Shown here: positions 6,807 through 17,697 of the stretch, in pieces
Numbering within the stretch: position 1 is the stretch's first letter
How the letters are laid out: every line of letters starts with the position of its first letter
IMG/VR virus record: IMGVR_UViG_3300031997_000866
Span: 1-21,377 of that record
Origin: a virus
Strand: one strand, 5' to 3'
DNA: 21,377 nucleotides
The notes under the pieces: generated by a model
What the model was told of the DNA's origin: nothing
Seen by the model: the letters and a program-made list of their open reading frames with translations, nothing else
Databases searched by the model: none
Program-made: the position numbers and the translations under genes

Positions 6807-7396
6807 AGACACGTATGAGAACACACTGTAAAAACGGACACGCTTTAATCGAGGAAAATAGGTATCTATACAACGGCTATGTTTCTTGTAAAACATGTCG
6901 AAGTGTTAATGCTCATGTTTTTAACGAAAGAAATCCTAAAAGAACAGCAAAGTATTATAAGGAAAATAAAGATAAGGTGAGAAAACGTCAGCGTACCTAT
7001 GTTCAAGAACACAGGGAAATGCTTATAGAGTCTCGTAAAAAGTATTATAAAGATAATAGAGAGATACTATCAGAAAAACATCGCGTATACAATGGTTCTA
7101 ACGCTGCAAAAGAGGCCGGTAGAAATTCCAAGTATCTTAAAAAATATGGAATTACTCTTGGTATGTATAATGCTATGTTGGTTGAACAGTCTAATAAGTG
7201 TGCTATTTGTAAACATGACCAAATAGCAGGGTGGTATTTATCTGTGGATCACGACCATGTTACAGGACAAGTAAGAGGATTACTTTGCTATCGTTGTAAT
7301 TCGGCGCTTGGGTTTTTGCGTGAAGATCCTATTCTTTTATCACGCGCTTTAGAATATTTATCTAAATCAAAAAGTTCATATGGAGGACAAAAGTAA
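6803..7396 (+). CDS. Recombination endonuclease VII-like (His-Me finger) nuclease
   Basis: This relative of T4 gp49 would cleave branched DNA before packaging, or act as a free-standing homing-type nuclease. The C-terminal half has the signature CAIC (C133, C136), LSVDHDHVTGQVRGLL (D149 to H152, the His-Me catalytic motif), CYRC (C162, C165, completing the structural zinc site) and NSALG. The N-terminus holds a second putative zinc motif (C9, H13, C29, C32). A Lys/Tyr-rich linker of repeated YYKENK-, YYKDNR-like helices (about 50-115) joins the two. The start is GTG 6803, overlapping the previous stop; ATG 6815 in the same frame is a credible alternative that would remove 4 residues. Bases 6901-7200 are about 33% GC against about 44% in 7441-7740, which suggests recent acquisition. 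Confidence 0.9.
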   Translation: MKTRMRTHCKNGHALIEENRYLYNGYVSCKTCRSVNAHVFNERNPKRTAKYYKENKDKVRKRQRTYVQEHREMLIESRKKYYKDNREILSEKHRVYNGSNAAKEAGRNSKYLKKYGITLGMYNAMLVEQSNKCAICKHDQIAGWYLSVDHDHVTGQVRGLLCYRCNSALGFLREDPILLSRALEYLSKSKSSYGGQK

Positions 7397-8583
7397 TGGG
7401 TGTTTCATACTTATCGGCATCGGCCATCAAGGATTTTTTGCTGTGCCATCTAAAATTTCTATACCGGTCCGATAGGAGTGCGCGTTCCGTAAAAGGAGAT
7501 CACGCGAAACTTGGCTCGGCAGTGCATGAGGCTATAGAGCAATTTACGAGAAGGATGATCGCTAAACAGAGTTTTCCTGACGCATCGGACTACGACTTTG
7601 CTGTAGCTACGTTTATGAATAATGCTACTGAGGCCGGCTTAGAAGATATGACTTTTTTTAAAGAAGGAAGACAAATAGTAGTTTCTTATATAGATGGGTA
7701 TGACCCAAGTGAGAAGGTTTTAGAAGATGGAATCGAACATTTTTTCCGTCTTACTTCTCCGGCTGGAGTGCCCATAGTGGGTGCTATAGATAAGGTTGTA
7801 GAACTGTCTCCCGATACTATAGGGATTTATGACTATAAAACCGCTAGGAATGCACTTACTAACAACGAACTTTTAACAGACGTTCAGTTGTCTATGTATG
7901 ATCTTGCTGGAAGTATTGTTTGGCCGCAGTACCCAAATCGAGTTTTGTTCCTAGACTACGTGCGCATTGGTAAAAAAGTTTCTACGTATCGTACAGATGA
8001 GGATAGAAAGAGTTTTAATGAGTTCTTATCCGCCACCTGGACTCAGGTCAACAAACTCGAGGAGTCAGAGGCTACGGGCACATTAAATCGTCTGTGCGGC
8101 TGGTGTGACTATAAAGATCGTTGCCCAGCTTACCAGAACTTCTTATCTGCTAGAGAACCTGGTTTTAAAACTATCAGTGAAATGAGTGACGAAGAGGTTT
8201 TAACGCACTGGACAGAAATAGCTGACAAGAAGTCTATTATAGAAAGCCGTCAGCGTGAATTAAAAATGATGGTTAACGAACGTTTTATGATGGGTAGAGA
8301 AATTGCGGCCGGTGGCCAAGAACTGCAAAGTATGCAATCCTCTCGTACCAATTTTGATATCGAGGATGTCATTACGATTATTCCCCATACCGATGTTTTT
8401 AATGTACTTACCGTTAATAAGTCTAGACTAGATAAATACGTTAAAGAGCATCCGGAATATAAGGCAGCTATTGGTAGAGTAGGGAAAGTATCCTACACGG
8501 CTGCGTCGTATGTTGTCCGGAAATCTGCTATAGAGGAGGAAATACCTCTTGACGATGCTGAACAAGACGAAGAAGCAGCTTGA
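7396..8583 (+). CDS. RecB/Cas4-like PD-(D/E)XK nuclease with predicted Fe-S cluster
   Basis: This predicted DNA exonuclease probably resects ends for RecA-driven recombination. Visible active-site elements, in order, are H44 (GSAVHEAIE), D132 (VGAIDKVVEL), and D146 with K148 (IYDYKTA), followed by the Q-containing helix VQLSMYDL. Four cysteines are placed as in AddB/Cas4 iron-sulfur nucleases: C17 near the N-terminus and C234, C237, C243 in LCGWCDYKDRC. A further 140-residue C-terminal part (KSIIESRQRELK, then QSSRTNFDIEDV and VSYTAASYVV) resembles the extension seen on phage RecB-like exonucleases. Length is 395 residues. The start shares a base with the previous stop and has GGAGG at 7382-7386. 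It is not a CRISPR Cas4, since no cas genes or repeats are present. Confidence 0.9.
   Translation: MGVSYLSASAIKDFLLCHLKFLYRSDRSARSVKGDHAKLGSAVHEAIEQFTRRMIAKQSFPDASDYDFAVATFMNNATEAGLEDMTFFKEGRQIVVSYIDGYDPSEKVLEDGIEHFFRLTSPAGVPIVGAIDKVVELSPDTIGIYDYKTARNALTNNELLTDVQLSMYDLAGSIVWPQYPNRVLFLDYVRIGKKVSTYRTDEDRKSFNEFLSATWTQVNKLEESEATGTLNRLCGWCDYKDRCPAYQNFLSAREPGFKTISEMSDEEVLTHWTEIADKKSIIESRQRELKMMVNERFMMGREIAAGGQELQSMQSSRTNFDIEDVITIIPHTDVFNVLTVNKSRLDKYVKEHPEYKAAIGRVGKVSYTAASYVVRKSAIEEEIPLDDAEQDEEAA
8534..8539 (+). promoter_or_regulatory. Shine-Dalgarno for the Sm-like gene
   Basis: AGGAGG lies inside the end of the RecB-like gene. It is 9 bases before TTG 8549 and 15 before ATG 8555, so spacing favours the TTG, although ATG is the stronger codon. 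The two starts differ by only two residues. Confidence 0.6.
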
Positions 8584-8809
8584 AGAGTTACACAATCCAT
8601 TTATAGGTATTCAATTAAAAAGTGGTGGTAAGATCTTTGGAAACGTTGTTAAGTTCACACCTCACACCATTTATGTAACGGATAGACACGGTGAGGTTTT
8701 AGATGTATCGCGGAATCATATATTTAGGGCTTTTTTACTAATAAAGGGAGATATTACAGATGGTCCAACCGAGCTTTCTAAACAGAGTAAATTTGCAAGG
8801 CATTTCTGA
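8549..8809 (+). CDS. Small protein with Sm/Hfq-like pattern, putative
   Basis: This 86-residue protein has a basic helix at the N-terminus (residues 4-15), then NPFIGIQLKSGGKIFGNVVKF, IYVTDRHGEV and LDVSRNHIFRAFLLI. A helix followed by a strand with I-x-L-K-x-G-G-K-x-x-x-G, a hydrophobic strand near residue 41 and a late strand with V-x-R-x-x-I is the order of Sm1 and Sm2 motifs in LSm proteins and Hfq. If correct, it would form a ring that binds RNA. The C-terminal 20 residues are polar. It overlaps the RecB-like gene by 35 bases and the next glycosyltransferase by 50 bases, which suggests coupling. The fold call is mine from pattern alone; another small beta-barrel (SH3-like) is possible. 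Confidence 0.6.
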   Translation: MTMLNKTKKQLEELHNPFIGIQLKSGGKIFGNVVKFTPHTIYVTDRHGEVLDVSRNHIFRAFLLIKGDITDGPTELSKQSKFARHF

Positions 8810-10091
8810 CAAACCAGATAAGAAAAAATATCGTATAATTTTCTATGGGGACTCTCCTACCTGTGCTACAGGGTTCGGACAAGTGTCCAGAAATATATTA
8901 CCAGCGCTACACGCTACCGGAAGATTTGAGATACAAGTGTTAGGTATAAACTATTGGGGAGATCCGCACGGCTATCCCTTTCCTATTTGGCCCATGGCTA
9001 TTAATAATACTAAAGATCCGTATGGGCGGCAAAGATTACAACAGCATCTGTTAGACCCGCAGCTGGAGTATGATATGCTGTTCTTTATGCAAGATACTTT
9101 TATTCTTGATAATCTCCCAGGTCTTTTAGGCAGTTTACGGCAGGCTGGAAAACGCTTTAAGAGTGTTTTCTATTATCCTATTGATGGTATCCCGAAGAAA
9201 GCTTGGGTAGAAAGTGCCGCAGGCGTAGATGTACCGGTTACATATACTCAATTTGGATTCGACCAGTCCGTAGCGCTTGTACCGGAATTAAAAAATAGAC
9301 TTAAGATTATACCTCACGGTGTAGAACCGGCTATCTTTAAACCGATGCCTAAAGAGCAGATATTGGATTTTAGAAGGAAATATCTTGGGCCGCTAGCTGA
9401 TAAGTTTATAATCACTAACGTTAATCGGAACCAACAGCGGAAGGATATTCCGGCTACCCTTCGAGCTTTCGTAGAGTTTAGAAAGCATCGGCCGGACTCA
9501 GTGCTCTATCTGCATATGGCGCCTATTGATCAAGGTTGGAATCTACCGGAGGTTATACGGTCTTTCGGTCTGGATATGAGTAAGGATGTTATTCTTCCGA
9601 ATAACTTTTCCCCCGCTACAGGATTTCCTTTGGACGTATTAAACTTTATCTATAACATGAGTGACTTAGTTATAAGTACTACGCTTGGTGAGGGTTGGGG
9701 GTTATCGTTTATTGAAGCCATGGCTTGTAGAGTGCCTATAGTTTTTCCGATGAACACAGGACTTGGTGAGCGTATTACTGAGGAGACCGGTTTTACTTAC
9801 AAGAGCGGTGGCGATATGGATCATATAACCGTTCTTCCTAACGATAACGAGGTTCTTCGTCCGGTGGCGCACATTCCAGATTTAGTAGAGAAGTTAGTCT
9901 TTGCTTATGATCACCCCGAGGAACGAGTTAAGAGGGCAGACGCGGCTTATAAGATGGTCACTGAAAACTTGCTTTGGGGCAAGCATGTAACACCGCAGTG
10001 GGTTAGCCTTTTTGAGACGCTAGCGACGCAAAAGATTGTTGCGCCGAGTCTAGAGTCCGTCAACCCCGTTTTAAAAGGTGAGGTACTTTAA
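8760..10091 (+). CDS. Glycosyltransferase, GT-B fold (GT4-like)
   Basis: This is predicted to transfer a sugar from a nucleotide-activated donor. The N-terminal half starts with YRIIFYGDSPTCATGFGQVSRN, the acceptor-side Rossmann domain of GT4-type enzymes. The C-terminal half has the donor-domain opening FIITNVNRNQQRKDIPATLRAF and the E-x7-E motif (E311, E319 in EGWGLSFIEAMACRVP), which contacts the donor. The length of 443 residues is normal for the family. The ATG at 8760 has AGGGAG upstream and lies within the Sm-like gene. It is the first of seven consecutive sugar genes. Donor, acceptor and product cannot be told from the sequence. No membrane segment or signal peptide is seen, so it should act in the cytoplasm. 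Confidence 0.88.
   Translation: MVQPSFLNRVNLQGISDKPDKKKYRIIFYGDSPTCATGFGQVSRNILPALHATGRFEIQVLGINYWGDPHGYPFPIWPMAINNTKDPYGRQRLQQHLLDPQLEYDMLFFMQDTFILDNLPGLLGSLRQAGKRFKSVFYYPIDGIPKKAWVESAAGVDVPVTYTQFGFDQSVALVPELKNRLKIIPHGVEPAIFKPMPKEQILDFRRKYLGPLADKFIITNVNRNQQRKDIPATLRAFVEFRKHRPDSVLYLHMAPIDQGWNLPEVIRSFGLDMSKDVILPNNFSPATGFPLDVLNFIYNMSDLVISTTLGEGWGLSFIEAMACRVPIVFPMNTGLGERITEETGFTYKSGGDMDHITVLPNDNEVLRPVAHIPDLVEKLVFAYDHPEERVKRADAAYKMVTENLLWGKHVTPQWVSLFETLATQKIVAPSLESVNPVLKGEVL
10077..10083 (+). promoter_or_regulatory. Ribosome-binding site for the second glycosyltransferase
   Basis: GGTGAGG ends 9 bases before the ATG at 10093 and overlaps the in-frame GTG at 10078. This supports ATG 10093, one base after the preceding stop, rather than the GTG as the real start. 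Confidence 0.55.
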
Positions 10092-10092
10092 T

Positions 10093-11226
10093 ATGAATGG
10101 AGTAAAGTATATAGGGCCTTTTTTTGATGGCTCTGGGTATGCGGAAGCCGCTCGTAATTATGTGTTGGCTATTTATAAGAAGGGTTATCCTATTACGATT
10201 ACTCCGGTTTCATTTGAGAATACCCGTCCGGATTTAGGTAAAGATGGGGAAATTCTCAGATCTTTGGTGAACCTCCCAATCTCTTACGATAAGATAGTCA
10301 CACATATTACGCCAGATCTTTGGGCGCACGTATTGACACAGGAAAACTCTGTCTATAAAATAGGTTATACGGTTTGGGAAACTAGTAAAATACCCTCGGT
10401 TTGGGCGCAGGCCTGTAATCGGGTAAACGAGGTTTGGTTACCTTGCGATTGGAATATGGAAGTGTTTAAAGAGTCGGGTGTCACTAGACCTCTGTATAAG
10501 ATCCCCCATGCTATAGAAGTTCCAGATTTAGAAAGTGTTCAAGATTTCAATTTAGAGGGTGTAGCTCCCGATACTTTTGTATTTTACTCTATTTTTCAAT
10601 GGCAGGAGCGTAAAAATCCATACGGATTACTTTCTTCGTACATGGCAGCTTTTACGGGTAGGGATGACGTTATTTTGGTTCTAAAAACATATCTTAATAA
10701 TCAGGACGGGGATAAAGAAGGCATAAGGAAGTTTATTTTAGATTTCCGTGGTTTTTTCGCTTTAGATCATTACCCGAAACTTTTCCTGGTCGTGGCCAAT
10801 ATGAGTAACGAAGATATGCTTTCTCTTCATAAACGAGGAGATTGTTTTGTTCTTCTGCAACGGTCCGAGGGCTGGGGACTTCCCCATTTTGAAGCAGCGG
10901 CGTGTGGTAAGCCCGTAATTACTACAGGGTACGGAGGGCAGACTGAGTTTTTAAAGGAAGACAACTCCTATCTACTAGATTATCAGTTAACTCCCGTAAG
11001 CGGTATGCCTTGGTCTCCTTATTACAGGGGGGATCAGTTTTGGGCGGACGTTAACGCTAAACAAGCAATAGAGACTATGCGGCATGTCTACGAGAATCGG
11101 AACGAGGCCAAAGAAAAGGGCGCTCGAGCCCGCGCGTATATACAGACTCACTTTACTAGAGATAAGGTTGGGGATATGCTCATTGATAGGCTTACCAAGA
11201 TAGACCAAGGGGACCGACATGTCTAA
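10093..11226 (+). CDS. Glycosyltransferase, GT-B fold (GT4-like)
   Basis: A second retaining-type GT-B glycosyltransferase. From ATG 10093 it has 377 residues and opens with VKYIGPFFDGSGYAEAARNYV, the glycine-rich acceptor-domain start. FVFYSIFQWQERKNPYGLL opens the donor domain, and E-x7-E is intact at E259 and E267 (EGWGLPHFEAAACGKPVI), followed by TGYGGQTEFL. It resembles the preceding gene in layout and in the D-x-x-G...RN start, so the two may be distant paralogues with different acceptors. An in-frame GTG at 10078 would add five residues but coincides with the ribosome site. It overlaps the next gene by 8 bases. Substrate unknown. Confidence 0.88.
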   Translation: MNGVKYIGPFFDGSGYAEAARNYVLAIYKKGYPITITPVSFENTRPDLGKDGEILRSLVNLPISYDKIVTHITPDLWAHVLTQENSVYKIGYTVWETSKIPSVWAQACNRVNEVWLPCDWNMEVFKESGVTRPLYKIPHAIEVPDLESVQDFNLEGVAPDTFVFYSIFQWQERKNPYGLLSSYMAAFTGRDDVILVLKTYLNNQDGDKEGIRKFILDFRGFFALDHYPKLFLVVANMSNEDMLSLHKRGDCFVLLQRSEGWGLPHFEAAACGKPVITTGYGGQTEFLKEDNSYLLDYQLTPVSGMPWSPYYRGDQFWADVNAKQAIETMRHVYENRNEAKEKGARARAYIQTHFTRDKVGDMLIDRLTKIDQGDRHV

Positions 11227-11845
11227 ACAAACACTCGGGCTGGCCATGATTGCCCAGGACGAGGTAACTAATATTCCGATGGCGTTGGCTCAATTCTATT
11301 TTGCAGTGGACGATATAGTAGTGGTTGACGGGGGGTCTTCAGACGCTACGGTTTCGTGGGCGGAAAAATTGGGTGCTCGGGTATTTAAAAGACCTTTCAA
11401 TAACGATTTTTCTGCACAGAAGAATTTCGCCATCGAACAGCTTGCTACAGACTGGATCTATGTACACGACGCGGACGAGCGGTTAGTTCCGCCTCTACTA
11501 GATATAATTCGTCCTCTAATAGAGGATCCGAGATCACTTATAGATAAGGGGATACTTCCTAATTCTCCGGAAGAATTTGATTGTTATGGTATTCCGCGTA
11601 AGAATATGATAGACGGCTTGTGGGTACCCCCATACCCCGATCACCAATACCGGTTGTTTCGTAACTACTGTAGATACAGCGGACGAGTTCACGAAACTAT
11701 AATTAACTTTAAGAATAGAACGGAAGTAGATTTTAAACACAATGTGCGGGATAAGTACGCAAGGTTCTGTATTATGCATTATAAGAGTAGTAAAGTACAA
11801 GCTGCACATAATGAGCGCTACGATAAGATAGTGAAAGGAGTTTAG
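11219..11845 (+). CDS. Family 2 glycosyltransferase (GT-A)
   Basis: Inverting GT2 enzymes use a metal-bound nucleotide sugar. The 208 residues start with LGLAMIAQDEVTNIPMAL and contain VVVDGGSSDATV (D37, the nucleotide-binding site), DFSAQKNFAI and the DxD metal motif HDADER (D84, D86). The rest, including YGIPRKNMIDG and YRLFRNYCRYSGRVHETI, fits the small SunS/LgtF-like group of GT2 proteins, in which an aromatic-rich acceptor region follows the DxD. AAGGGG precedes the ATG, which lies inside the upstream gene. Acceptor unknown; it could be a protein, glycan or DNA base. Confidence 0.87.
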   Translation: MSKQTLGLAMIAQDEVTNIPMALAQFYFAVDDIVVVDGGSSDATVSWAEKLGARVFKRPFNNDFSAQKNFAIEQLATDWIYVHDADERLVPPLLDIIRPLIEDPRSLIDKGILPNSPEEFDCYGIPRKNMIDGLWVPPYPDHQYRLFRNYCRYSGRVHETIINFKNRTEVDFKHNVRDKYARFCIMHYKSSKVQAAHNERYDKIVKGV

Positions 11846-11847
11846 TA

Positions 11848-12840
11848 ATGCCTGTAGATTTTAAGAATAAAACTGTTTTAATTACTGGGGCATCTGGTTT
11901 TCTTGGGGCACACATCGCCGAGGAACTAGTAGCTCGAGAGGCCAGTGTGGTTGCCTTAGCCCACGATGTGAAGAAGCACTCTTATCTTGTTCTTGAGGGT
12001 TTGGATAAGCGTATGGATACTTGTCATGGGGATATAACTTCCTTGGAAAGAATGCAAGAAGTTATGGCTAACTATGAAGTAGAGTACGTTTTTCATTGCG
12101 CCGCCGATGCCATTGTTAGAACATGTTCCAACGACCCTCTTGGTTGTTTTAGAGTTAATATACTGGGTACGGCTATAGTTTTAGAAGCTGCACGATCCGT
12201 AGGCACTGTTAAGGGCGTCATGTGCATGGAAAGTGATAAGTCTTACGGCTCGTTCGATTCTAAAGACCTACCTTATAGGGAAGATCAGGCCCTTAAGCCT
12301 TCGAATGTTTATGAGGTCTCCAAGGCGTGTGCTGGGCTCGTAGCAAAGGCGTATGACCATAACTATAATTTACCGACTTTTACAATCCGAGGTGCTAATC
12401 TTTATGGTCCTGGGGATATGAATTTAAGTAGAATTATACCTGGTTCTATTCTTAGGATTTTAAACGGGGAAGCGCCTGTACTTTACGGAGGTGTAGGCAA
12501 GTACATACGTGAGTTCATCTACGTACAAGACGCCGCTTTAGCAATAGTTAAACTGATGGAACGAATTGAAGATACGCGGGGGCATGCTATTAATCTAGGT
12601 TCAGGTTCAAAACATAAGGTAGCAGACGTAATGGAACTGATTTGTAAGCTCAGCGGTTCAGCACTACGTCCTGTAATAGTTGAAAAAGTTGAGACTTTTA
12701 AGGAGATAGAGGAGCAGTGGCTAGCTTTAGATAAGTTGTTTTCTTTCTTGCCTAATTTCTCCCCTATCGGTTTGGAAGAAGGCTTGCGGAAGACAATTAA
12801 ATGGTATACCAAATTTCAGGCGATGAAAGAGGGGAGGTAA
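11848..12840 (+). CDS. Extended SDR: NDP-sugar 4,6-dehydratase/epimerase-like
   Basis: This NAD(P)-dependent enzyme probably modifies the sugar of a nucleotide-sugar donor used by the adjacent transferases. The 330-residue protein starts with the Rossmann motif TGASGFLG (G14, G17, G20). Its catalytic pair Y155 and K159 sits in YEVSK, and S129-D130-K131 occupies the active-site triad region. The stretch SDKSYG, YREDQALKPSNVYEVSK and LYGPGDMNLSRIIP reads most like CDP-glucose or related 4,6-dehydratases, though epimerases share much of it. REFIYVQDAA is the usual late motif. AAAGGAG at 11834-11840 precedes the ATG. The enzyme class is firm; the exact substrate is not. Confidence 0.87.
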   Translation: MPVDFKNKTVLITGASGFLGAHIAEELVAREASVVALAHDVKKHSYLVLEGLDKRMDTCHGDITSLERMQEVMANYEVEYVFHCAADAIVRTCSNDPLGCFRVNILGTAIVLEAARSVGTVKGVMCMESDKSYGSFDSKDLPYREDQALKPSNVYEVSKACAGLVAKAYDHNYNLPTFTIRGANLYGPGDMNLSRIIPGSILRILNGEAPVLYGGVGKYIREFIYVQDAALAIVKLMERIEDTRGHAINLGSGSKHKVADVMELICKLSGSALRPVIVEKVETFKEIEEQWLALDKLFSFLPNFSPIGLEEGLRKTIKWYTKFQAMKEGR

Positions 12841-13863
12841 ATGAGAATTTATATTGCATCTCCGGGGCAGTTTTACGAGGGGTTTAATTCCCGTATTAGA
12901 GGGGAGGGACGTTGGCTTATTCACTTAGCTGGTGTTCTCCGGACACAAGGTCACGACGTGACTGTGTTTAGTAACGACCCCTTGGGTGTGTATACGGATA
13001 GGGGTGTAACCTTTACATCAGTCTGGAATGACGCATATCCAAAAGAATGTGATTTGATGATTTCAATGGACGCTTTTTCTGATCTGCCTCAGCTTCACAA
13101 GACAAATGTAACTCCACAGGTTGATACGTTCAAACCGACAAAGCGGGTATGGGCCACGGTCTTTCCTGTTGAGGACACGCATCCGGTACACGATGTTCTT
13201 CCTGTTATTTACATGTATAACTTTGGTCGTCAGAAAGGGATTCCTTTACCCCTACTTACGCATGATAAGGTTGTTCCTCCTGATTTTACTAAAACTAAAT
13301 TTCATTGGTATAGTAAAAATGCGAATGAGGAGCCCCAGTATATCCTCGGGGCAATGCGAGGTATAGCTCGCCTGGTGGAGAACCACGGGGCTTCTGGAAC
13401 CTTTATAGATGGTCCTCAACTATTTCAAGGGGATTACCGTAAAAACTACCCTAAAGAAAAGGAACAGGAAACTAAGCAGTTGTTTTCTTCTATTTTGTCT
13501 AAGGGGAGTGAAAGTTTTGCTAACTGGGTTCCTTATGACTATGCGCTTTCTCTTCTCTCTAAATCTAAACTACTTCTTGGTGTCCATCATCCGATAATGG
13601 CTCCGTCTATTCTAGAAGTCGTAGTATTAGGAGGTTTTCCTGTTATATTTGAGAATCAGAAAAACTGCCCGCCTTATGACCACGTCGATATCCCGTATGT
13701 GAAAGAGAATGCTTCTGATGACGAGGTGGCAGATTTTATAGAAATGATGTGGACGGATAAGGATTTATTCGAAGCATCGGTTCTTACCTGTCAGGAAGCG
13801 ATACATGCGCATTCCTATCCAGAAGTTTACAAGGCCGTACAGAAATTTATTTACGATCTATAA
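12841..13863 (+). CDS. Divergent GT-B glycosyltransferase-like protein
   Basis: This 340-residue protein has the outline of a GT-B transferase but lost a key residue. It starts with MRIYIASPGQF and GEGRWLIHLAGVLRTQGHDVTVF, a typical acceptor-domain Rossmann start. The donor-domain end reads YALSLLSKSKLLLGVHHPIMAPSILEVVVLGGFPVIF by segments, where the second Glu of E-x7-E is present (E259) but the first is Pro (P251). The middle (KTKFHWYSKNANEEPQYI) is unusual and has no motif I know. It could be a non-GT4 GT-B enzyme, a sugar-binding subunit or an inactive paralogue. AGGGGAGG precedes the ATG directly after the previous stop. It sits in the sugar cassette, which supports a related role. Confidence 0.72.
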   Translation: MRIYIASPGQFYEGFNSRIRGEGRWLIHLAGVLRTQGHDVTVFSNDPLGVYTDRGVTFTSVWNDAYPKECDLMISMDAFSDLPQLHKTNVTPQVDTFKPTKRVWATVFPVEDTHPVHDVLPVIYMYNFGRQKGIPLPLLTHDKVVPPDFTKTKFHWYSKNANEEPQYILGAMRGIARLVENHGASGTFIDGPQLFQGDYRKNYPKEKEQETKQLFSSILSKGSESFANWVPYDYALSLLSKSKLLLGVHHPIMAPSILEVVVLGGFPVIFENQKNCPPYDHVDIPYVKENASDDEVADFIEMMWTDKDLFEASVLTCQEAIHAHSYPEVYKAVQKFIYDL

Positions 13864-13874
13864 AAGGACTTAAT

Positions 13875-14870
13875 ATGAAAATGAAAACTTATTTTTGTCA
13901 AATGGTTGTCAATCGCTTAGAGATGATGCGTTTTAATTTAGAGCATGCTTTTCCTTATTTTGATCATTTTGTGATTGTAGACGGGGGTTCTACTGACGGG
14001 TCTGTTGAATGGTTAAAGGAACAGCCTAAGGTTTCTCTTGTTGAATTTAAGTGGTGCGATAATTTTCCTAAAAGTAGAAATCAGTACCTGATTCGAGTGG
14101 GAGAGCTCCGTGAACCAGATGAGGTTTCTCTATGCTGTGTGGCAGATGACGACGAATTTTATTCTGAATATTTAATGCAGAATATACATAACGCGGGTGC
14201 TCTGATGCTTAGTCAGGGTGCTAATCAGATGGCTATACGTTGTCGTAGTGTGAGTTTGGGTAGAGACAACTCTAGGGTATGGGAAAATCTTGATAATTTT
14301 TGGAAGCCATTAATATTTTTCTGGGAACCTGGAATTCATTATGCAGACTCCGTTTTACACGAAACTCTTATACCTCCGTCTGGCGTACGTCCAATGCAGG
14401 TTGAGGACGCTGCTAACACTAATCAGGAGGTACTTTACGAGCATATAAAGAGAGAGAACATTATCTGGCCTAGAGGTTTCAGAAATTTCTATACGTTCGG
14501 GGGCGGACCAAATCTTGGTGAAAATCAGGCGCTGTGGCGTCCTTTTAGGGCTCTTTTAGCTGAGATAGGTTCCTTTGAAAATTGGATAGCCGTAGAGGAG
14601 TATCTGGTTAAAGGAAATGTTGATCAACGCCTTAAGGATTGGTTTATAAAATATCGTTTGGACGGCACCTCTGAGTACGGGATTGAACACGAAGGAAGAA
14701 AAGTACCGTACGACGGTGCTTCTGAAGTTAGAGAGGCCTTCTTAACCTATTTTGTGTGGTATCATCCAGAAGAGTTACCAAAAGAGTTATTAGAAACAGA
14801 TAGGGCGTATAAGGATTATGCTACGGAAGCTAAGAAGATTCATGGGGACGATGTAAAGATAGGGGTTTGA
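13875..14870 (+). CDS. Family 2-like glycosyltransferase (GT-A)
   Basis: A second GT-A transferase, 331 residues. FVIVDGGSTDGSVEWL (D36, T40, D41) is the nucleotide-binding start and VADDDEF (D91 to D93) supplies the metal-binding DxD. FPKSRNQYLIRV between them is equivalent to the SxxRN motif of glycosyltransferases that act in sequence with GT4 enzymes. The C-terminal 200 residues (VLHETLIPPSGVRP, NFYTFGGGPNLGENQALW) are long and particular to this protein and probably set the acceptor. AAAGGA lies before the ATG, 11 bases after the preceding gene. Its stop overlaps the next start. Confidence 0.84.
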   Translation: MKMKTYFCQMVVNRLEMMRFNLEHAFPYFDHFVIVDGGSTDGSVEWLKEQPKVSLVEFKWCDNFPKSRNQYLIRVGELREPDEVSLCCVADDDEFYSEYLMQNIHNAGALMLSQGANQMAIRCRSVSLGRDNSRVWENLDNFWKPLIFFWEPGIHYADSVLHETLIPPSGVRPMQVEDAANTNQEVLYEHIKRENIIWPRGFRNFYTFGGGPNLGENQALWRPFRALLAEIGSFENWIAVEEYLVKGNVDQRLKDWFIKYRLDGTSEYGIEHEGRKVPYDGASEVREAFLTYFVWYHPEELPKELLETDRAYKDYATEAKKIHGDDVKIGV

Positions 14871-15775
14871 TGATGAAAGTGTTAGTTACTGGGGGCGGAG
14901 GTTTTCTAGGGAGTGTTCTAGTTAACTTGTTAGCTAAAAGAAAGGATATTGAAATAAGTATCCTCGACACCTTTGTACACGGCTTTCCCAAAGACTTTGT
15001 TAAAAAGAAGAAAATACAAAACCCCGTTGTGGGAAACATTCGAAATTATTATGATATTTATCATCTCGTAGACCGTTTTCGTCCTGACGTAGTCTATCAT
15101 CTTGCTGCGTATATCACTCGTCCTGAGAATATTGGAGATTTTAAGTTATGTGCCGAAGTAAACTATGTGGGTACAGCTAATTTAATAGACGCGTGCGCTC
15201 GTTTAAAAGGGGAAGTCCCTAAGAAGATAATCTATGCGTCGTGCGAATCCGCCAGAGACCCGCTATCGCATATAGGGATCGCTAAGAAAGCTTCGGAATC
15301 CTTATTAGAACTCACCTGTCCAGACTTGGGGATGTCGATAGCCACGTTACGTTTAGCGGAGATTTACGGATACTCCTCCGTTTACACTTCATCTGGGGTG
15401 ATTAATTTTCTGATTGATAATCTCATTTTGAATAAGAACATTCATCTCTTTGGTCCCAAAGCCGTGAAAGATCATCTTCACGTAGACGACGCTGCTCGCG
15501 CTCTTGTTTCCCTGCTAGACTTGGATTTTTCTAAAATATCGGGTATCGATGTAGGTACGGGGGTAGGTGTTAGTATGATGGAGTTAGCACAGGCGCTAAA
15601 AGAACTTTGCGACTCTAAGACAGTTTTTAAGTTTAGTGATAGCCCTCTGATTAGAGTAGTTAGTTCTGTTTCCGATCCAGAACCCGCTAAAGAAATTTTG
15701 GGTTTTGAGACGCAAGTTAATTTTGAGGAAGCTGTAATAAAGCAGATTTCTAAAAGAAAGAAAGATTTAAAGTGA
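14870..15775 (+). CDS. Extended SDR epimerase-like protein lacking the catalytic Tyr
   Basis: An NAD-binding protein of the UDP-glucose epimerase type, 301 residues from ATG 14870. The Rossmann motif TGGGGFLG (G8, G11, G14) is intact, and VVYHLAAY, NYVGTANLIDAC and KIIYASCES follow as in active family members. At the YxxxK position, however, the sequence reads SHIGIAKKASE, so Tyr is Ile (I135) while Lys (K139) is kept. HLFGPKAVKDHLHVDDAA is the usual late region. Classical SDR chemistry needs this tyrosine, so the protein may be an inactive or regulatory partner of the intact SDR upstream, or use another residue (H134 is adjacent). TTG 14867 and ATG 14873 are alternative starts; AGGGG at 14861-14865 suits 14873 slightly better. 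The stop overlaps the polymerase start as GTGA. Confidence 0.85.
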   Translation: MMKVLVTGGGGFLGSVLVNLLAKRKDIEISILDTFVHGFPKDFVKKKKIQNPVVGNIRNYYDIYHLVDRFRPDVVYHLAAYITRPENIGDFKLCAEVNYVGTANLIDACARLKGEVPKKIIYASCESARDPLSHIGIAKKASESLLELTCPDLGMSIATLRLAEIYGYSSVYTSSGVINFLIDNLILNKNIHLFGPKAVKDHLHVDDAARALVSLLDLDFSKISGIDVGTGVGVSMMELAQALKELCDSKTVFKFSDSPLIRVVSSVSDPEPAKEILGFETQVNFEEAVIKQISKRKKDLK

Positions 15776-17697
15776 GTTCTTCTAACTTTTTCTATATAGA
15801 GAGTAATAAAAAAGCCGTTGAGGCCGTAGAGTACCTTTCCCAGTTTTCGCGGTTGGGTTACGATACAGAAACAACGGGTTTAGATATCATAAGTAAGAGA
15901 TCTAAACTACTTCTCATGCAACTTGGAACAGAAGAGGCAGCTTATGTATTTGATGCCAGGCGTATAGATACAAACATCTTACGTCCTATTTTGGAGTCCA
16001 AGACAATCGTAAAGATTCTCCATAACGCTAAGTTTGATTATCAGTCAACGAAAATAAATACGGGTATAACCGTTAATAATATGTTTGACACCATGCTCGC
16101 CTATCGCATACTCACTTGCGGTAAAGACGATATTGTTGGTATGCGGGATAAGAATAAGCGTCGGTTTCCTTACAAGAGTCTTGCTTTCCTTTGTAATAAG
16201 TATTTGGGTATGACTTTAGATAAGGACGTTCGTAAAACCTTCATAAATTTTCAGTATAACAGGGAGTTTACCGAGAGCCAGCTTAAGTACGCCGCGGAAG
16301 ATATTCTTGTTCTTCATCCGCTATGCGACTTATTGTCAGAGGAACTTATAAAAGAGGGACTGCTTGACACCGCTATTTTGGAATTTTCTTTTATAAAACC
16401 ATGTTCTGAAATGGAGATAGAAGGTATTCTGATTAATAAGGAAAAATGGAGAGAGGTTATTTCTTCGGCCGACGTTAAAGCTAACTTTTACTTTGATAAG
16501 CTCACAGCAGAGGTAGCCGTACTCTCTGATCAGAATACACTATTTGGGGCTACTACTATTAATATAGACAGTAATGACCAGATCTTAGATTGTTTTAGAA
16601 AGTTAGGAGTTCAATTAGAAAGTACGGATAAAAAGGTTCTAAAAAATTGTAAGCATCCAGTTGCTGACATGGTTTTGCAGTATCGTGCTTACAAAAAGTT
16701 AATCTCTACTTATGGTGAAAGTCTTTTAAAAAAGATTAATAAAACTACAGGTAGATTACACTGTACTCTCCATCAGCTCGGTGCGGATACCGGTAGATTA
16801 AGCTCTGACTCGCCTAATATTCAGAATATACCCCAAGATCGTGGAGACGAAGAGGTACAGCTCTCTTTCCGGGAGTGCTTCGTGGCTTCTCCGGGTAAGA
16901 TGATTCTTACCGCAGACTATAGCCAGTGCGAATTAAGAATTCTTGCCGAGGTGTCACAAGACAAAGGTTTCCTTTCTATATTTCATAACAATCAGGATCT
17001 GCATCAGATTACAGCTCAACAGGTTTTCGGATTTTCTGACGAAGAGTTGGCTACTTTTAAACGAGTAAAGAAACTAGATGAAGGTGGACATATATCTAAG
17101 GCCACCGCCGAAGATATTCGAGTTTATAAGCTGGTGGGGGATTACCGACAAAAGACGAAGGCGATCAACTTTGGTATTCCGTATGGTATCAGTGCTTTCT
17201 CTTTGGCAGAGACGTTTAGGACGTCCAAGGAAGAAACGCAAGTTATGTTAGACGGGTATTTTGCTAAGTACTCAGGGATTAAGCGGTGGCTGGATAAGAA
17301 TGGCCACCTTTGCTTGGTAAATAGATACAGCAAGACCCTTTTGGGAAGGAAGCGATACTATTACCTCCCAGACATGTCTGATGAGGAAATTTTTAGGCGC
17401 GCCAAAGGGGCGACCATTCGTATGGGCAATAATCAGGTTATTCAAGGCACCAATGCAGATATCACTAAAGCGGCCCTGGTGGAGCTGCAGGAGTACTACG
17501 ATTCTATTGGTGGTGCACGTTTATTGTTTACTGTACATGACGAGGTTGTATCCGAAGTAGATGAGGGTAAAGCTGAAGAAGTATCCGTTAGGAAGGCCGA
17601 GATTATGCGTGATGCTTTCCATAGGTTTATTAAGACTGTACCCGTAGGTGTTAATGATCAAGTAGGCGTAGCTATAAAGAAGTTTTGGAGTAAGTAA
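15772..17697 (+). CDS. polA: DNA polymerase I (family A) with 3'-5' exonuclease domain
   Basis: This is the likely replicative polymerase of the phage. Of 641 residues, about 1-200 form a DEDD proofreading domain: YDTETTGLD (D31, E33), HNAKFDYQ and YAAEDILVL. The polymerase domain carries TGRLSSDSPNIQNIP, motif A LTADYSQCELRILAE (D382), motif B RQKTKAINFGIPYG (Arg, Lys, Phe and Tyr positions all present) and motif C FTVHDEVVSEV (H589, D590). The 5' nuclease domain of bacterial Pol I is absent, as in phage T7-type enzymes. Phe at the O-helix position is the bacterial Pol I state. The GTG start overlaps the preceding stop. The gene follows the sugar cassette without a gap, so both probably share a transcript. 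Confidence 0.96.
   Translation: MSSSNFFYIESNKKAVEAVEYLSQFSRLGYDTETTGLDIISKRSKLLLMQLGTEEAAYVFDARRIDTNILRPILESKTIVKILHNAKFDYQSTKINTGITVNNMFDTMLAYRILTCGKDDIVGMRDKNKRRFPYKSLAFLCNKYLGMTLDKDVRKTFINFQYNREFTESQLKYAAEDILVLHPLCDLLSEELIKEGLLDTAILEFSFIKPCSEMEIEGILINKEKWREVISSADVKANFYFDKLTAEVAVLSDQNTLFGATTINIDSNDQILDCFRKLGVQLESTDKKVLKNCKHPVADMVLQYRAYKKLISTYGESLLKKINKTTGRLHCTLHQLGADTGRLSSDSPNIQNIPQDRGDEEVQLSFRECFVASPGKMILTADYSQCELRILAEVSQDKGFLSIFHNNQDLHQITAQQVFGFSDEELATFKRVKKLDEGGHISKATAEDIRVYKLVGDYRQKTKAINFGIPYGISAFSLAETFRTSKEETQVMLDGYFAKYSGIKRWLDKNGHLCLVNRYSKTLLGRKRYYYLPDMSDEEIFRRAKGATIRMGNNQVIQGTNADITKAALVELQEYYDSIGGARLLFTVHDEVVSEVDEGKAEEVSVRKAEIMRDAFHRFIKTVPVGVNDQVGVAIKKFWSK

Follow-up and report, generated by a model that had tools for sequence, protein, structure and literature searches.

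The window analysed here is the complete IMG/VR record IMGVR_UViG_3300031997_000866, a phage fragment of 21,377 bases. Its genes form a tight plus-strand array that starts with the C-terminus of RecA and continues through a DUF559-like endonuclease, DnaB, primase, SSB, DnaJ, RuvC, and endonuclease VII to a PD-(D/E)XK RecB-like nuclease and a small open reading frame (ORF). Next comes a cassette of seven tandem plus-strand ORFs (positions 8760–15775) related to glycosyltransferases (GTs) and short-chain dehydrogenases/reductases (SDRs), which is the subject of this study. DNA polymerase A (PolA), DUF192, and ribonucleotide reductase complete the array. The cassette and its flanking genes are as follows (group A comprises the close relatives defined below).

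7396–8583, plus strand: PD-(D/E)XK RecB-like nuclease, the upstream anchor (PF12705, E=9.2e-22)
8549–8809, plus strand: small ORF, no Pfam match, homologues in group A
8760–10091, plus strand: GT1, GT4-family glycosyltransferase, core gene (PF00534 and PF20706 above cut-off; phrog_2170, E=9e-51)
10093–11226, plus strand: GT2, GT4-family glycosyltransferase, core gene (PF00534, E=8.9e-12)
11219–11845, plus strand: GT3, GT-A (family 2) glycosyltransferase (PF00535, E=1.6e-12)
11848–12840, plus strand: SDR4, extended SDR resembling nucleoside diphosphate-sugar 4,6-dehydratases/epimerases (PF01370, E=1e-47)
12841–13863, plus strand: GT5, putative GT-B glycosyltransferase, unproven (PF13439, E=0.038)
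13875–14870, plus strand: GT6, GT-A (family 2) glycosyltransferase (PF13704, E=5.5e-07)
14867–15775, plus strand: SDR7, extended SDR with Ile in place of the catalytic Tyr (PF01370, E=3e-26)
15772–17697, plus strand: DNA polymerase A, the downstream anchor in group A (PF00476, E=2e-89)

A sequence-only reading of the window had described the cassette as five GTs and two nucleotide-sugar SDRs set between a RecB-like nuclease with an Sm-like gene and the polymerase. We confirmed this arrangement, with a spacing of -8 to +11 bases within the cassette and a 50-base overlap between the small ORF and GT1. It is well beyond chance, since the identical order recurs in dozens of contigs. GT1, GT2, GT3, and GT6 score above their Pfam cut-offs, but GT5 is unproven because its sole Pfam match is weak, its homologue lacks a Pfam domain, and its structure model failed. 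Both SDRs are strong matches to the Epimerase family, although SDR7 has lost its catalytic Tyr. The Sm-like label of the small ORF found no support in Pfam.

The position of the cassette is a fixed trait of its lineage. Group A was defined by a GT1 at least 62% identical to that of the window, and group B by mostly 45–58% identity. A scan with PolA yielded five close relatives, all in group A, in which the order RecB–small ORF–GT1–GT2–...–SDR7–PolA is identical wherever the contig extends. Two relatives are records of 296–298 kb, which places the window in a jumbo-phage lineage. A GT1-profile scan of IMG/VR gave 70 loci, and in 69 of these GT1 lies behind RecB, as far as contigs extend, where a replication block ends (RecA–endonuclease–DnaB–primase–SSB–DnaJ–RuvC–RecB). 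The exception is locus L101; L091 lacks a clean RecB call. RecB was also used as an independent marker, so that loci were not picked by GT1, with contigs that overlap those of the GT1-profile scan. GT1 was present in all 52 RecB loci whose contigs continue 3 kb or more downstream, mostly adjacent to RecB and at most 3.4 kb off, among the best 80 of 118 matches. A GT1 search in bacterial genomes returned only a single 4.5-kb contig from a metagenome-assembled genome. Throughout the lineage, the cassette is tied to replication and not to structural genes. The sequence-only reading had stressed this placement, and had named constant association with tail genes in relatives as an observation that would speak against a nucleic-acid target; relatives keep the cassette at replication genes.

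The conservation of the core pair was compared across 39 loci. Mean identity of GT1 was 69.6% in group A, as against 60–64% for RecB, DnaB, and primase, and 57.5% in group B, as against ~45% for the same three proteins. GT1 distances track those of RecB, DnaB, and primase (r 0.90–0.92), indicating that GT1 was inherited with them. GT2 likewise exceeds the three in conservation and correlates with them (r ~0.9). Large insertions occur at several sites in nine of 76 GT1 proteins and 13 of 60 GT2 proteins, with three comparable insertions in recA and none in DnaB, RecB, or primase. Those in GT1 mostly fall within the GT4-family EX7E catalytic motif, such that GEGWGL is followed by C...HN and then by SWTEAMA. 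Those run against Pfam have LAGLIDADG domains and, in four cases of five, intein-splicing domains. Inteins persist chiefly in genes that their host cannot lose. From the inteins and the conservation above DnaB, it is a fair inference that GT1 and GT2 are essential in the phage. A literature search turned up no paper devoted mainly to inteins in phage glycosyltransferases. Inteins are found in GT1 at L055, L094, L095, L097, L103, L172, L173, L184, and L186, and in GT2 at L002, L065, L073, L076, L089, L092, and others, with up to two per protein.

The GT1 structure model (predicted local distance difference test score 81.6) points to a GT-B fold, which together with an EX7E motif at E309–E317 places GT1 in the GT4 family. 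Its best match in the PDB is the GT4-family protein B736L of chlorella virus NY2A (3oy2), followed by BshA, PimB, and MshA; B736L is only 16% identical and belongs to a eukaryotic virus. GT2 is assigned to GT4 by Pfam. GT1 also exceeds the cut-off of PF20706, a GT4 family in conflict systems (29.5 bits vs 26), while GT2 falls slightly under it (24.7). The N-terminal tail of GT1 is Lys-rich and the most basic among the families measured, with a mean charge of +5.2 over 25 residues. GT2 most likely starts at the ATG at 10093 and not at the GTG at 10078, and a Shine-Dalgarno-like purine-rich stretch ahead of it overlaps the 3' end of GT1. We considered the conserved C-terminus of GT1 as a docking motif and set this aside, as in the window it coincides with that stretch.

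SDR4 has the motifs sought in an extended SDR, namely a glycine-rich NAD motif (TGASGFLG), a DK pair (SDK), and YxxxK (YEVSK). Its nearest NCBIfam models are dTDP- and CDP-glucose 4,6-dehydratases, both under cut-off. SDR7 of the window has IGIAK where YxxxK is expected and would not qualify as an active extended SDR. Among six SDR7 homologues, the Tyr is retained in four and replaced in two (HGI(C/S)K). Sites without the Tyr are at 14867–15775 in the window, L004:2982-3878, and L042:17138-18043. GT5 has one homologue at 50% identity (in L042), and scanning viral sequences with the window's GT5 as query found nothing. Two tandem weak GT5 homologues occur elsewhere in a group A relative (L037:9044-11076, minus strand, G004) and are perhaps part of a second sugar cluster.

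The genes after GT2 are mosaic, and their types are those of surface glycans. SDR4 is ~40% identical to its relatives, as against ~65% for GT1. In L003 and L006 of group A, SDR4 is joined by a DegT aminotransferase and an acetyltransferase of PglD type in place of the GT5 and GT6 of the window and L042. Enzymes of these types make 4-acetamido-4,6-dideoxyhexoses. Group B has methyltransferase, GT9, sulfotransferase, UDP-GlcNAc 2-epimerase, PIG-L deacetylase, hexapeptide transferase, and DegT genes at this position, and L101 has NeuB. Of 385 proteins from cassette regions, none has as many as two hydrophobic segments by hydropathy, which implies that these regions lack genes for a flippase, polymerase, or multi-pass lipid-carrier transferase. 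By the same measure, the GTs are soluble and unaccompanied by the membrane assembly machinery of a lipopolysaccharide (LPS) or capsule cluster. A search of 12 large records yielded no nucleotide-sugar pyrophosphorylase, with 14 of 14 controls positive, so that the host probably supplies activated precursors.

No ThyA-family gene was found in the window, in agreement with the sequence-only reading, which had seen no base-hydroxylating or base-hydroxymethylating enzyme there and had advised looking for a hydroxymethylase beyond it. That search yielded a predicted hydroxymethylase between GT1 and GT2 in distant relatives and none in close ones. We surveyed the GT1-GT2 gap in 66 distinct loci. The two genes are adjacent in 39, whereas a distant ThyA homologue lies between them in 10, canonical ThyX in three, and another gene in 14. 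The last are mostly members of the phrog_6721 family (~190–230 residues, no known function), one of which is above the Pfam Thy1 cut-off. Members at L063:11324-11902, L108:11327-11983, and L092:13126-13689 have residual ThyX-like sequence without the RHR motif. ThyA-like gap genes occur at L089:11275-12072 and likewise in L057, L071, L073, L085, L091, and L067.

Nine ThyA-like proteins were aligned with E. coli ThyA, T4 gp42, and SPO1 gp29. All nine have Asp for Leu143 (three residues ahead of the catalytic Cys), Leu147, and Asn177, and lack the C-terminal tail. Asp at E. coli position 143 is a hydroxymethylase signature (PMC6400193), and Asn177 matches the uracil-type SPO1 enzyme. The group B gap gene is therefore predicted to encode a pyrimidine hydroxymethylase, possibly of a new type, although its substrate is uncertain because the phosphate-binding Arg126/127 pair is lost. 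Plain thymidylate supply, suggested by ThyX occupying the slot in three loci, is an unsafe explanation given the signature.

No such signature was found in group A, whose records may be incomplete. ThyA is canonical in G008 and G009 (Leu143, His147, and Asn177). In G005 it has Asp177 while retaining Leu143, His147, and the tail (G005:294542-295354, L112), and it adjoins dihydrofolate reductase and a putative deoxynucleoside monophosphate kinase. Asp177 has been tied to deoxycytidine monophosphate (dCMP) and to modified contigs (PMC8670742). These residues suggest dCMP methylation rather than hydroxymethylation, making the G005 protein a candidate dCMP methylase of a jumbo phage. In the same record, the region from ~36 to 111 kb (L012–L016) has short ORFs on both strands, unlike the remainder, and is possibly a chimera or an unusual region. 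No C5-methyltransferase was found in 33 records. Searches for TET and HMUDK gave no matches, but their controls were equally silent, making them uninformative.

Palindrome content was evaluated as a read-out of DNA modification. In G009, which has the full cassette, 6-base palindromes are avoided (observed/expected 0.899, 12 standard deviations under the null), as they are in most relatives. This evidence is weak because SPO1, the hydroxymethyluracil control, also avoids palindromes (0.829). A clean split by type of thymidylate synthase (TS) in the first 12 genomes failed out of sample, and this correlation was abandoned: G036, with a ThyA-like gene, shows strong avoidance (0.880), and G023, without one, shows little.

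An isolate with a similar arrangement is Flavobacterium phage vB_FspM_immuto_2-6A (NC_055915). It has a PD-(D/E)XK nuclease, a GT1-like protein (57 bits), and a GT2-like protein (95 bits), followed in one run by a GT-A enzyme, a WecE aminotransferase, an SDR, and more GTs. However, it is distant, and no replication genes lie directly upstream in the portion read. The closest GT1 homologues among isolates are those of Tetrasphaera phage TJE1 (40%), beside terminase and portal, and Synechococcus phage S-CBS4 (36%), between portal and head protease, both unlike the window. The S-EIV1 homologue adjoins primase; in Streptomyces phage Annadreamy, ribonucleotide reductase is the neighbor of a GT2-like pair. 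The P-SSM2-type capsular/LPS clusters of cyanophages also combine epimerases with several GTs and vary among relatives (PMC7824862), but the window's lineage has an invariant GT1-GT2 core fixed to RecB. Moraphages, compared by description, are likewise a jumbo lineage with DnaJ and with four GT orthogroups in the core genome, but their reported marker is a family B polymerase (PMC12619734) and the window has PolA. In mycobacteriophages, phage GTs modify virion proteins, with capsid and tail-tube glycans as cited in PMC12619734; unlike there, no structural genes lie beside the window cassette.

We propose, with a probability of about 0.4, that the cassette builds an invariant core linkage on a cytoplasmic phage protein and decorates it with swappable outer sugars. 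GT1 and GT2 would be core, probably essential phage enzymes that make the inner linkage in the cytoplasm. GT1 would place the first sugar on a constant acceptor, the most conjectural element of the scheme and most likely a virion protein produced while infection proceeds; GT2 would extend that sugar. GT3, SDR4, GT5, GT6, and SDR7 would form an exchangeable outer-sugar module, in which SDR4 may convert a host-supplied precursor to a 4-keto-6-deoxy-type nucleotide sugar and the GT-A enzymes may add outer residues. The pair would be carried in the replication operon and co-inherited with it. Glycosylation of a phage protein is favored because a constant inner linkage, changing outer sugars, and a lack of membrane enzymes occur together. 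The conservation of GT1 and GT2 above RecB, DnaB, and primase also counts for it, as do the inteins in both genes, the presence of GT1 in all 52 testable RecB loci, the B736L fold match, the palindrome avoidance of G009, the failure to find a hydroxymethylase in close relatives, and the GT1 homologues at terminase, portal, and head genes, the last in two distant isolates only. It is weakened by the basic GT1 tail, the predicted group B hydroxymethylase, and the bond to replication genes; furthermore, the virion glycoprotein is putative, none being known in this lineage.

A doubtful but serious alternative is that GT1 and GT2 glycosylate a 5-hydroxymethylated pyrimidine in phage DNA, with the outer genes extending the DNA-linked glycan. 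The hydroxymethyl base would come from the thymidylate-synthase-family gap gene, in parallel to T4, whose b-gt adjoins gene 42 (a ThyA-family hydroxymethylase) in a replication cluster. The universal placement in the replication block, the ThyA-like gap genes with Asp143, a non-His residue at 147, and no C-terminal tail, the Lys-rich GT1 N-terminus, and the dCMP residue Asp177 of G005 ThyA are all consistent with it. Yet T4 has no multi-sugar module, its gene 42 has Asp177 and not the Asn177 of the group B proteins, and its b-gt and a-gt have no Pfam or tblastn link to GT1 or GT2. The Pfam matches of the pair are of GT4 type only, and phages with known DNA GTs are absent from its tblastn matches; no homology to known DNA glucosyltransferases was found. 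The gap is mostly empty or, in three loci, filled by canonical ThyX; the ThyA-like proteins lack Arg126/127; G008 and G009 have a canonical TS and G005 a TS-type catalytic set; and C5-methylase is missing from the 33 records. Palindrome avoidance in G009 and most relatives argues against this alternative too, weakly in view of SPO1. We know of no DNA precedent for sulfated, amino-deoxy, and nonulosonate chemistry, and a surface or protein glycan agrees better than any DNA glycan known to us with the sugar chemistry and the mosaicism of the outer genes. An elaborated form, in which GT1, the hydroxymethylase, and GT2 are a DNA-glycosylation machine that attaches oligosaccharides of varying make-up (amino-deoxy and possibly sulfated sugars among them) to hydroxymethylated pyrimidine, is unlikely, as is its corollary that the window's subgroup has a hydroxyl source not yet seen. 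The nucleic-acid target that the sequence-only reading considered worth testing gains from the replication placement and the group B signature, but near relatives are negative and it is not our leading interpretation.

It is also rather improbable that the cassette remodels the host envelope by modifying the LPS core or another surface glycolipid at its cytoplasmic face, for exclusion of competing phages or an altered envelope. Its enzymes are typical of surface polysaccharides, including GT9 (the heptosyltransferase family), and similar cyanophage clusters have been assigned that role (PMC7824862). The early-type operon position would agree, and the basic GT1 tail could bind an anionic membrane. 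Against this, the cassettes encode no flippase, polymerase, or lipid-carrier transferase, nor a multi-pass protein of any other kind, and the inteins and conservation above DnaB suggest a step that is essential, as superinfection exclusion would not have to be. We regard as least probable that the product of the pair is a small glycosylated metabolite, or that its target is RNA or some host protein. The structural neighbors of GT1 include BshA, MshA, and TreT, makers of small molecules, but GT1 scores 31 bits with the BshA model against a cut-off of 274, and an oligosaccharide would better account for the large, variable sugar modules.

Phage glycosyltransferases are usually regarded as patchy accessory genes. 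In this broad uncultured lineage, every locus that could be tested has the GT1-GT2 pair, which changes more slowly than the DnaB helicase and is a favored site for inteins, so that some glycan is seemingly needed in every infection. Identifying the acceptor would uncover either DNA glycosylation of a new type or an obligatory glycoprotein or envelope step of giant phages; with immuto available as an isolate, the question can be tested.

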